Source of the DNA: an uncultured Nitratifractor sp.
GTDB taxonomy: Bacteria; Campylobacterota; Campylobacteria; Campylobacterales; Sulfurovaceae
Reading direction: 5' to 3'
DNA: 38,162 bases
NCBI GenBank assembly: GCA_947311565.1
Contig: CAMZLH010000060.1
Location: forward strand, 1 to 38,162
Below are positions 4,776-27,283 of the stretch, in pieces. The first letter of the stretch is position 1. The number at the start of each line of letters is the position of its first letter. The translations under genes were made by a program, and so were the position numbers. The notes beneath the pieces were generated by a model. It searched no databases, was not told the origin of the DNA, and saw nothing but the letters and a program-made list of their open reading frames with translations.

Positions 4776-4972
4776 TTTATATCCTAATATAATTTTAAAC
4801 CATATCGTCTATACAGATACTCTATAATATATAAAGTATAAACTAGGTTATACTATTATATCAAAAAAATACTTATCACTATAGCAAAACTCTATTGATA
4901 GTTTTTCTACTGTTATATAGTAATTATATTAACTTTTTAAGATATTAAGTGCTAATCATAATCTCTTTTTTG

Positions 4973-22918: not shown

Positions 22919-23626
22919 GTGACAATAGAAGAGTTAAAAAAAAGCTATCAAGAGGCAAAAGAACTTTCTTCTCAACTTAATTTTATTGAGAAGTTATTAG
23001 AAAGTAATGACAAAGATATCATTGAATACCATTATTCTCTTTTAAAATATAAAGAAACAGATTTTTTTTATTTGCTAAGAGCAAAATTTGTGAAAAGAGG
23101 TAATATTGGTTCAATATTCTTATTAGAAAAATTACAAAAAGAAAAGAATATTGCTTTAAAAGCAGAAGCACTTTTTATATTAGGATTATTAAGGGAAAAT
23201 TTGAATTTTAAAGAGATAAAAATATTAAAGTTTAATGCTAGTCAATTTATTTTAAAAAAAGAGAATTATGTAACCCAATATTATGGTATTATTGTTTTAG
23301 GTTGGATAGGACAAGAAAAGGAAGTAAAAATATTAGAAAATGAATTAAGTAATAATTTAGATGTAATATTAAGAAGTTATGCTAGTTCTGCTTTAAGGCA
23401 AATTTGGTTTAATCATGAAAATTTAAAAGAAAAAATATTAAGAATTTATTTTAATTCATTAAAAAATGAAGACAATAGCATAGTTAACAGTACATCTATT
23501 TCATGCATACAAGACTTGTTACAAAAAAAATTTGGAATAAATGAAGTGAATGGAAAAATATCAGGCAATGTTGAAAAAGCAAAAATAAAGGTACTAAATA
23601 TACTTGAAAAGGATTTTACTAAATGA
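22919..23626 (+). CDS. HEAT-like helical repeat protein, accessory pair member 1
   Basis: 235 residues, all helical by pattern. Repeats resemble HEAT units, for example LLEKLQKEKNIALKAEALFI, IVLGWIGQEKEVKILENEL and RSYASSALRQIWF. There is no signal peptide. The start is a GTG at 22919 with AAAGGATAAAA upstream. It is AT-richer than the flanking housekeeping genes and overlaps the next gene by four bases (ATGA), so the two are translationally coupled. HEAT-like proteins of this size often serve as immunity proteins or scaffolds in toxin and defence loci, but no toxin is visible, so the role stays open. Confidence 0.8.
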   Translation: MTIEELKKSYQEAKELSSQLNFIEKLLESNDKDIIEYHYSLLKYKETDFFYLLRAKFVKRGNIGSIFLLEKLQKEKNIALKAEALFILGLLRENLNFKEIKILKFNASQFILKKENYVTQYYGIIVLGWIGQEKEVKILENELSNNLDVILRSYASSALRQIWFNHENLKEKILRIYFNSLKNEDNSIVNSTSISCIQDLLQKKFGINEVNGKISGNVEKAKIKVLNILEKDFTK

Positions 23627-24429
23627 AGATATTTTATTATGATGCTGAAACACAAAATAATTTTGTAGGTGATAAAAAAATAGAAAATATTGATAAAGTT
23701 ATAGAAGATTTTTTTTATTTATCTGATATAGATGGTTCATTTTTTGGTTTAATAAGTGAGAATAAGCAAGTAATACAATTCTCATGGGAAAAAGATGATA
23801 TATGGAGTGTAGATATACCTTTAAAATCAACATTTGAAAGTGATGATATAAGAACATCTTTACAAAAATATGCAAACTACGATGAATGTATAAATATAAT
23901 AGAAAATACATACTATAATAGAAGTATTAACAATCTATATAAAGTTTTAATTATGAAGGAGACTTTAGAAGAAGTAAAAAGTAGAACAACAAATATTTCA
24001 AAATACAAATTAAATATAGAGGGTATAGAAAATATAAAAGAAGAGATAGTTTATCATGGATGGGAGAGAGGATTATTTCTTTATTGGTCATATAAGAATA
24101 ATTTATTAGTTCCCGAAGTGGAGAAGCAGAAGCTCATTGAACTCTATTTGGATGAATTAGAAAGCCCAACACATGAAATATTTTCAGAGGTTTTAAAAAA
24201 CTCTATTGGAGATAAGTTTGACTTACAGTTTTATAGGGAAGAGAGTAGAGAGTTTATTTTAGATTATATTTACTTTTCTACAGAAGAGTATGATTTTTAT
24301 ATTGATATAGAAAAACTATACCCAGAGATAAATAATACAACTGAAATATCTGAAACAGAAAAAGAGTATACTCAAATTATGAAAATATTTGATAGTAGAT
24401 ATGAAGAGTATCAAAAGATTAGAGAGTAA
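23623..24429 (+). CDS. Unknown acidic protein, accessory pair member 2
   Basis: 268 residues, strongly acidic, with no signal peptide or TM segment. The N-terminal 80 residues (DIDGSFFGLISENKQVIQFS then DDIWSVDIPLKS) look like a small beta-rich domain. This layout recalls immunity-protein families in polymorphic toxin loci, but I cannot name one. The C-terminal half (YHGWERGLFLYWS through ESREFILDYIYFS) is helical and ends in a coiled-coil-like tail. It is coupled to the HEAT gene by an ATGA overlap and followed by a clear terminator, giving a self-contained two-gene unit. Confidence 0.8.
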   Translation: MKIFYYDAETQNNFVGDKKIENIDKVIEDFFYLSDIDGSFFGLISENKQVIQFSWEKDDIWSVDIPLKSTFESDDIRTSLQKYANYDECINIIENTYYNRSINNLYKVLIMKETLEEVKSRTTNISKYKLNIEGIENIKEEIVYHGWERGLFLYWSYKNNLLVPEVEKQKLIELYLDELESPTHEIFSEVLKNSIGDKFDLQFYREESREFILDYIYFSTEEYDFYIDIEKLYPEINNTTEISETEKEYTQIMKIFDSRYEEYQKIRE

Positions 24430-25739: not shown

Positions 25740-26444
25740 TTAATTTTTGATTAATGGTATCTCTAAAAAAATATTATTTTCATTTAAATTTACAACTAAG
25801 CACAACTCTTTTGATAACTCTTTAATTCTACTATCATTACTGCAATATCTACCATTAGATTTAAACTCCAAAATAACAAGTGGATATCTTTTTTCATCTA
25901 AAACAATATGTTCACCAATACCAAGTTTTAGTGTAATATCTAAATAAGAGACAGATTTATATTCAGACAAGATAACTCTTATTAGTTTTAAAAAACTATT
26001 TTGATTTATCATGCTATTAGGGATATCTTGATCTGTAAATAGCCTAATATCAGCATTTGACTCTATTTTAAATTGAATAATTGCAATATCTAACATCTTA
26101 TTAAGATCTGTCATTGTATAGTTTTTTCTATTACTATTAATAGGTAACTTCTCTCTTGGTCTGTAGTATAGCCTTATAGCTATCCAACTATCACTATCAT
26201 AGCTTACATTTATAGCATAAAAATTTAAGTGATTATAGTTTAACTCTATCTGCGTAGTTTTACTACCATACTCTTTTGGTGCATTTTTTAATGATAAATC
26301 AAATATCTCTTTTATGCTTGCATAACTCATTAAAAGTTCTGCATTAGTATTTAAATATAAAATACTACCACTATGATTAAAAATAACAACAGGATTATTG
26401 TCAACCTCTAATAAAAATTTATAATCTACCTCAGAGATACTCAT
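25740..26444 (-). CDS. PAS-domain protein resembling a degenerate NtrB-type sensor
   Basis: 234 residues, cytosolic. Residues about 5-100 form a PAS-like domain (NNPVVIFNHSGSILYLNTNA). The rest resembles an NtrB-type histidine kinase, but without a recognisable H-box histidine or the N, G1 and G2 boxes of the ATPase. Only the overall pattern is left (NQNSFLKLIRVILSEY, later NNIFLEIPLIK where kinases have the last strand). It is therefore unlikely to phosphorylate. The ATG lies inside the upstream Fis-type gene (14-base overlap), with AAGGAAAAAG as ribosome-binding site. Coupled translation suggests the two proteins form a complex. Confidence 0.68.
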   Translation of the reverse strand: MSISEVDYKFLLEVDNNPVVIFNHSGSILYLNTNAELLMSYASIKEIFDLSLKNAPKEYGSKTTQIELNYNHLNFYAINVSYDSDSWIAIRLYYRPREKLPINSNRKNYTMTDLNKMLDIAIIQFKIESNADIRLFTDQDIPNSMINQNSFLKLIRVILSEYKSVSYLDITLKLGIGEHIVLDEKRYPLVILEFKSNGRYCSNDSRIKELSKELCLVVNLNENNIFLEIPLIKN

Positions 26445-27153
26445 TAATCTTTTTCCTTAATGTATTTCTATTTATGCCTAAAACATCAGATAGTTTTAAT
26501 TGGGACTTATATAACTCTAATCCAGCTTCGATTAATACTTTTTCAAATAACTCTATTTGCTCTTTATAAACACTATTCCCATCATAATTTTTTAAAAAAT
26601 AGTGATATAAAAGATATGATAGATCATCTTTATCTAAATTATTTAAAAGAATGTTTTTATATATAGAGCTCTTTAAACTCTTTAGGTTTTTAGATACATC
26701 TATCTCTAAACTATCAACTATAATATCTTTTTCTACATTAAAAATCTCTTTTGCCTCTTGTGTATAGTAATCTGCTAAAACTTTAATATCATCTTCTCTT
26801 TGTATAAGTGGTGGAATATGATATATAAATGCAAATTTATTCTCGACTCGTTTACTTAATCTATCACTATTGTATATTGCAACAACATTTACATTTTCAA
26901 AATTTAAAGAGTCTAAATCTGAAATTTTCTCAAAATTAGTAATAACAATATAGTGGTGTTCCTTTAGAGCTTTTTGAATATCTTGTAAATTAGAGCCATC
27001 AACCCAAAAAGAGTTTTTATAGACTTTTTTTACAATCTCTGTTTTACCACTATACCTCTCGGCATATATGACTGAAGATACAAAAATATCCATAGTAGAG
27101 CATAGCGACTGATAAATTTTATTAATCACAACAGAGTGATTTATTAAAAACAT
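26431..27153 (-). CDS. Degenerate NtrC-like regulator with Fis-type HTH
   Basis: 240 residues. There is no receiver domain. The central part resembles a reduced AAA+ sigma-54 activator: a P-loop remnant AERYSGKTEIVKK (first glycine lost), then HYIVITNFEKISDLD in the Walker B position and IPPLIQREDDIKVLADYY, the RxDI(xxL) segment typical of NtrC proteins. The GAFTGA loop needed to contact sigma-54 is absent. The C-terminus LKLSDVLGINRNTLRKKINE is a good Fis-type helix-turn-helix. It is therefore likely a DNA-binding protein that does not activate sigma-54 in the usual way. It is coupled to the PAS protein downstream. Confidence 0.75.
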   Translation of the reverse strand: MFLINHSVVINKIYQSLCSTMDIFVSSVIYAERYSGKTEIVKKVYKNSFWVDGSNLQDIQKALKEHHYIVITNFEKISDLDSLNFENVNVVAIYNSDRLSKRVENKFAFIYHIPPLIQREDDIKVLADYYTQEAKEIFNVEKDIIVDSLEIDVSKNLKSLKSSIYKNILLNNLDKDDLSYLLYHYFLKNYDGNSVYKEQIELFEKVLIEAGLELYKSQLKLSDVLGINRNTLRKKINEYL

Positions 27154-27283
27154 TTTAAGCCTTTATCTAATAATAGTATATTGATACTATATTGTATATT
27201 ATTATGCTTAAATTTTAGACAGTTAATAGAGTTAATAGATAAGTATATTAAATATAAAAGTACAATATTGATTATATTTAATA

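Follow-up and report, generated by a model that had tools for sequence, protein, structure and literature searches.

The core regulon of the nitrogen regulator NtrC comprises glnA, amtB, glnBK and ntrBC, joined in some taxa by nirA and narK, and the regulon survey that describes it left out the epsilonproteobacteria, which have no orthologues of its target regulators, NtrC among these (PMC5343134). C. jejuni has been reported to be without PII, NtrBC and Amt (PMC12795558). The NtrC proteins of Caulobacter and R. capsulatus lack the GAFTGA loop and act on sigma-70 promoters with a phosphorylated receiver; VpsR, discussed in the same paper, is another GAFTGA-less, sigma-70 protein that keeps a receiver with its aspartate and serves a different regulon (PMC10274813). 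NifA is inhibited through contact with NifL, whose GHKL domain receives the input from GlnK (PMC9866876). A search of the open-licence literature found neither an earlier description of the gene pair analysed here nor a transcriptional nitrogen regulator for free-living Campylobacterota (Sulfurimonas, Sulfurovum). Here, we describe two overlapping genes in a window of 38,162 nucleotides (the whole stretch of DNA that was analysed) that encode a predicted sigma-70-type nitrogen regulator, REG, and a partner protein, and that very probably control ammonium and nitrate assimilation genes.

Anatomy of REG and its partner

Both genes lie on the minus strand, REG (240 aa) at 26431..27153 and the partner (234 aa) at 25740..26444. 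The two frames are intact, with no frameshift, and share 14 nt (26431-26444), over which the start codon region of the partner overlaps the REG stop. As the preliminary description of this locus had proposed, the regulator is without a receiver domain and GAFTGA motif and has kept its Fis-type helix-turn-helix (HTH), which domain searches and 53 aligned orthologues confirmed. REG starts at its AAA+ core, and neither a receiver domain (Pfam search) nor a sigma-54 interaction domain (Sigma54_activat) or a GAF domain (domain search) was matched, while the GAFTGA loop and the Walker B acid are absent from all 53 orthologues in the alignment. The NCBIfam NtrC equivalog matches REG over the C-terminal 66 residues only. 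The HTH (residues 200-239; 26437..26556, minus strand), with the recognition helix LGINRNTLRKK, matches Pfam HTH_8 at 9.3e-8 and contains near-invariant columns; across REG, Gly36, Arg119, Asn156, Ser217, Asn228, Arg229, Thr231, Leu232 and Lys235 are invariant in 53/53 sequences. The damaged P-loop that had also been claimed turned out not to be a family trait. In the Walker A region (residues 31-38, AERYSGKT; 27040..27063, minus strand), for which the orthologue alignment gives the family form G-E-x-x-x-G-K, Gly36 is kept in all 53 sequences, Lys37 in 50 and the first Gly in 52, with the window copy having Ala at this position 31.

In a PDB profile search REG matched NtrC1, FleQ, VpsR and Fis, and its structural model (pLDDT 90) matched NtrX, PspF, NtrC1 and FleQ, plus RuvB among other AAA+ proteins. 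On these profile and fold matches the REG core is assigned to the enhancer-binding type of AAA+ protein, making REG a receiver-less, GAFTGA-less NtrC-type remnant fused to a Fis-type HTH. The combination of an NtrC-type AAA+ core, a Fis HTH, a deleted GAFTGA loop and, as predicted targets, nitrogen genes with sigma-70 promoters likens REG to the NtrC proteins of R. capsulatus and Caulobacter; however, these have a receiver, require aspartyl phosphorylation for activation and are paired with the kinase NtrB, whereas REG is receiver-less, which also separates it from VpsR, and its partner has no H-box.

The partner had been read as a PAS protein lacking an H-box and ATPase boxes. These motifs are indeed missing, but the protein is not PAS only. 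Its PAS domain (residues ~8-94; 26163..26423, minus strand) gave a sub-threshold Pfam match (E 0.14), although the partner profile matched the PAS domains of PpsR (E 0.002), and the retention of a PAS domain is supported by this profile match and the predicted fold. In the AlphaFold model (pLDDT 88) the PAS domain is followed by a kinase CA-like domain of GHKL/HATPase fold (residues ~110-230; 25755..26117, minus strand), and PDB matches of the model included sensor kinases, the NtrB CA domain (1r62) and the NifL-NifA complex (9qq6). The TM-scores of these matches are modest, about 0.35-0.6, as expected because the two-domain model lacks a DHp domain, for which there is no room between its PAS and CA-like domains. 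In the orthologue alignment, no conserved His column was found in residues 90-130, and the ATP-binding N and G boxes were not found. The partner therefore resembles NtrB in its PAS domain and CA fold but differs from it in having no H-box or DHp and no N and G boxes.

Conservation and gene neighbourhood

When the pair and its missing motifs were searched for among 60 relatives, the truncated form of REG was present in 53 and that of the partner in 52; among the 48 good genomes the counts were 43 and 42. Each gene occurs as one true copy per genome, with an open reading frame in nearly all. The two are found in the same genomes even where they are unlinked, the lone exception being a genome with REG near a contig end and no partner (G015). 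In a phylum-wide sample the partner was detected in 77/249 genomes and 36/56 genera. In the G045 family, a true REG occurs in about nine of 41 genomes; weak, partial matches to the REG profile in this family (E 1e-3 to 1e-8) belong to longer frames that probably encode sigma-54 activators, and these were excluded from the orthologue count. Distant matches in Rhodobacteraceae, which carry sigma-54 interaction domains, were also rejected, as they had been retrieved with a pattern that in itself selects for Fis-type helices.

Could an old NtrB/NtrC pair simply be on its way to losing function? The catalytic motifs have gone from both proteins, as plain decay would have it, but identical truncated forms, open frames and near-invariant HTH residues recur across the order, and this conservation led us to reject decay as extremely improbable. 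Since no aligned relative has canonical kinase or activator motifs, neither canonical homologues in close relatives nor frameshifted sister copies were encountered. Thus, on sequence evidence, the pair is not decaying and its truncated forms are conserved across the phylum. The words "damaged" and "degenerate", as applied in the preliminary description, are therefore misleading, while its idea of a repurposed, phosphorylation-free pair is supported by the sequences.

The neighbourhood of the pair varies among lineages. The genes for AmtB and PII follow or face it in many linked genomes, and glnD is the next gene after REG in two records of Arcobacter type; the linkage to amtB-PII is absent in several lineages. 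In Sulfurimonas, Sulfurospirillum, Sulfuricurvum and Hydrogenimonas-type records, REG is located in an ATP synthase/Tol-Pal/slyD/fabD region, and in order relatives with an unlinked pair the partner mostly sits just after rpoD. Nearly all genomes of the set have PII and GlnD-like genes. The same is not true of rpoN, which was not found in the window's genome (99.99% complete) or in most of its family. REG therefore cannot need sigma-54 in this genome. Gene context, together with the operators described below, points to a role in nitrogen assimilation that had escaped the preliminary description.

Two further features of these neighbourhoods were recorded. A conserved membrane protein with no Pfam family adjoins the pair and amtB in several lineages (L075:7069-7899, L145:875-1735 and L085:6344-7198), and within the window two neighbouring plus-strand ORFs at 22919-24429 have no clear family, the first giving a weak HEAT_2 match.

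A predicted palindromic operator and its candidate regulon

NtrC proteins recognise the consensus TGC-N11-GCA. A 17-bp palindrome, TGCTTAAAATTTAAGCA, occurs upstream of REG and, order-wide, of glnA, amtB and nirA/narK. In the window, the predicted operator TGTCTAAAATTTAAGCA (27205..27221, minus strand) precedes the REG start codon by 51 bp and is the sole site of the model in the 38 kb; an inverted repeat near 27172 (ATAGTAT-N4-ATACTAT) was dropped as a candidate once this conserved operator emerged. Most linked lineages have the form TGnnTA-N5-TAnnCA ahead of REG, and 13/49 REG-upstream operators are perfect 6+6 palindromes. The operator also precedes most amtB genes, glnA in 45 of the 50 genomes examined and PII in some genomes, and occurs in the nirA/narK intergenic region. 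For each genome, the glnA promoter was scored with a model built from the glnA sites of the other genomes; against a per-promoter 99% shuffle threshold of 10.5 bits, most sites scored 14-22. TGATTA-N5-TAATCA was found at 21 sites in eight genomes, compared to 1 for the reversed pattern. In the window's whole genome TGHNTAWWWWWTANDCA occurs seven times, compared to three for the reversed-pattern control, and six of the seven sites are at PII (two sites), glnA, nirA/narK, amtB and REG. By these predicted operators, the candidate regulon of REG (glnA, amtB, PII and its own operon) corresponds to the NtrC core. The pair would thus share with canonical NtrB-NtrC this core, the addition of nirA/narK and the operator spacing, but unlike it has no phosphorylation motifs and no sigma-54.

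Several individual sites deserve mention. The seventh site (G000:C67:29755-29771, locus L330; also L260) precedes a gene pair resembling the terminal heme-copper oxidase or NO-reductase type, the first gene of which has no Pfam match; a gene similar to the oxidase-like one lies near an operator site in G005. An operator-like site in G022 (L316:4050-4066) is located 88 bp before a gene for a LysR-type regulator, possibly a Nac-like relay. Two tandem perfect operators, 77-79 bp apart, stand between nirA and narK (L318:4729-4745 and 4808-4824; also L244).

We infer that REG is the protein on this operator. The glnA operator is present in 42/43 genomes with REG, counting the TGT-type site of G046, and was absent from four near-complete genomes without REG (G038, G043, G045 and G048). 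Three draft genomes (72-93% complete) have the glnA site with REG undetected, probably owing to assembly gaps. One genome, G042 (L069 and L301), has neither GlnD nor a glnA operator although it carries the pair and its REG site is perfect, a possible rewiring. A TGT..ACA variant of the operator accompanies the REG helices NRI, NRV or NRA in G011, G017, G046 and G053, while elsewhere the NRN helix pairs with TGC/TGA operators; G050 (NRV with TKK) and G047 (NRG) are exceptions that keep TGA sites, and the suggested covariation is weak, with few independent events. If another regulator owned the operator, REG and its partner would be merely one of its targets, and a site before REG would fit a plain target gene equally well. 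We nevertheless regard this as quite improbable: the glnA site is missing from the near-complete genomes that lack REG, the TGC-N11-GCA geometry is that expected for the target of an NtrC-type Fis HTH, the operator variant follows the REG recognition helix in part, and REG adjoins amtB, PII and glnD.

The position of the operator differs between promoters. At glnA, 40-41 bp separate its centre from the start of a downstream TATAAT-like -10 element in 43/45 genomes with the site, a spacing that implies a position near -52; at many amtB genes the distance is 30-31 or 40-41 bp. The probable -10 box of the REG promoter, TACAAT (27191..27196, minus strand), and the operator centre are 17 bp apart, which makes the operator overlap the -35 region, an arrangement seen in the window's genus; in Sulfurovum-type genomes the operator is downstream of the -10. 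This placement over or after the REG promoter suggests autorepression, and it is also what would be seen if REG were chiefly a repressor at every site. We consider so general a repressor role improbable, though a little less so than ownership of the operator by another protein, since the glnA and amtB operators precede the -10 by 40-41 or 30-31 bp, at a constant helical phase, which is the arrangement expected of an activator.

A proposed nitrogen switch

In Campylobacterota, REG and its partner are likely to form a minimal nitrogen regulator that works without sigma-54 and without phosphorylation. REG would be an NtrC-type protein that has lost its receiver and sigma-54-contacting loop, and its Fis HTH would bind the 17-bp palindrome. 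We infer that, from positions near -52 or -42, REG would activate the sigma-70 promoters of glnA, amtB, PII and nirA/narK, and that it would repress its own gene through the site that covers or follows the REG promoter. The partner, with a PAS-plus-CA architecture like that of NtrB and NifL and presumably unable to phosphorylate, would bind REG directly and switch it off when nitrogen is plentiful, under the control of PII, which GlnD in turn would set. A PAS protein acting directly on a DNA-binding protein, as previously suggested for this locus, is plausible.

By analogy, the best reading is that REG works on DNA like the NtrC of R. capsulatus and Caulobacter, and its signalling is perhaps like that of NifL-NifA. 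The NifL-NifA-GlnK system of Azotobacter shares the PAS plus GHKL partner, whose model here matches 9qq6, and works through protein contact and an input from PII; between REG and its partner, such contact is a proposal. However, NifA, which has a GAF domain, is a sigma-54 activator and controls nif, whereas REG has neither GAF domain nor sigma-54 and its predicted targets are glnA, amtB, PII and nirA/narK.

PAS domains are often redox or ligand sensors. The partner might thus be a positive co-factor, or a PII-independent sensor of redox or of a ligand such as 2-oxoglutarate, rather than an anti-activator, with REG still regulating nitrogen genes. We hold this to be unlikely, yet the most substantial of the alternatives: contact between PII and the partner is itself a proposal, and several lineages are without amtB-PII linkage, but the match of the partner fold to the NifL-NifA and NtrB CA domains and the linkage to amtB-PII and glnD elsewhere favour PII input. 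For the scheme with PII input as a phylum-wide one, an Ntr cascade made up wholly of protein contacts in which PII would act on a catalytically dead PAS-CA protein and this in turn on an NtrC remnant that has no receiver and is independent of sigma-54, our confidence falls slightly short of even.

Taken together, a phylum thought to lack a classical nitrogen regulator gains a candidate regulator together with a predicted operator and predicted targets, and the pair illustrates how a two-component system may retain its regulon after the loss of phosphotransfer and sigma-54.
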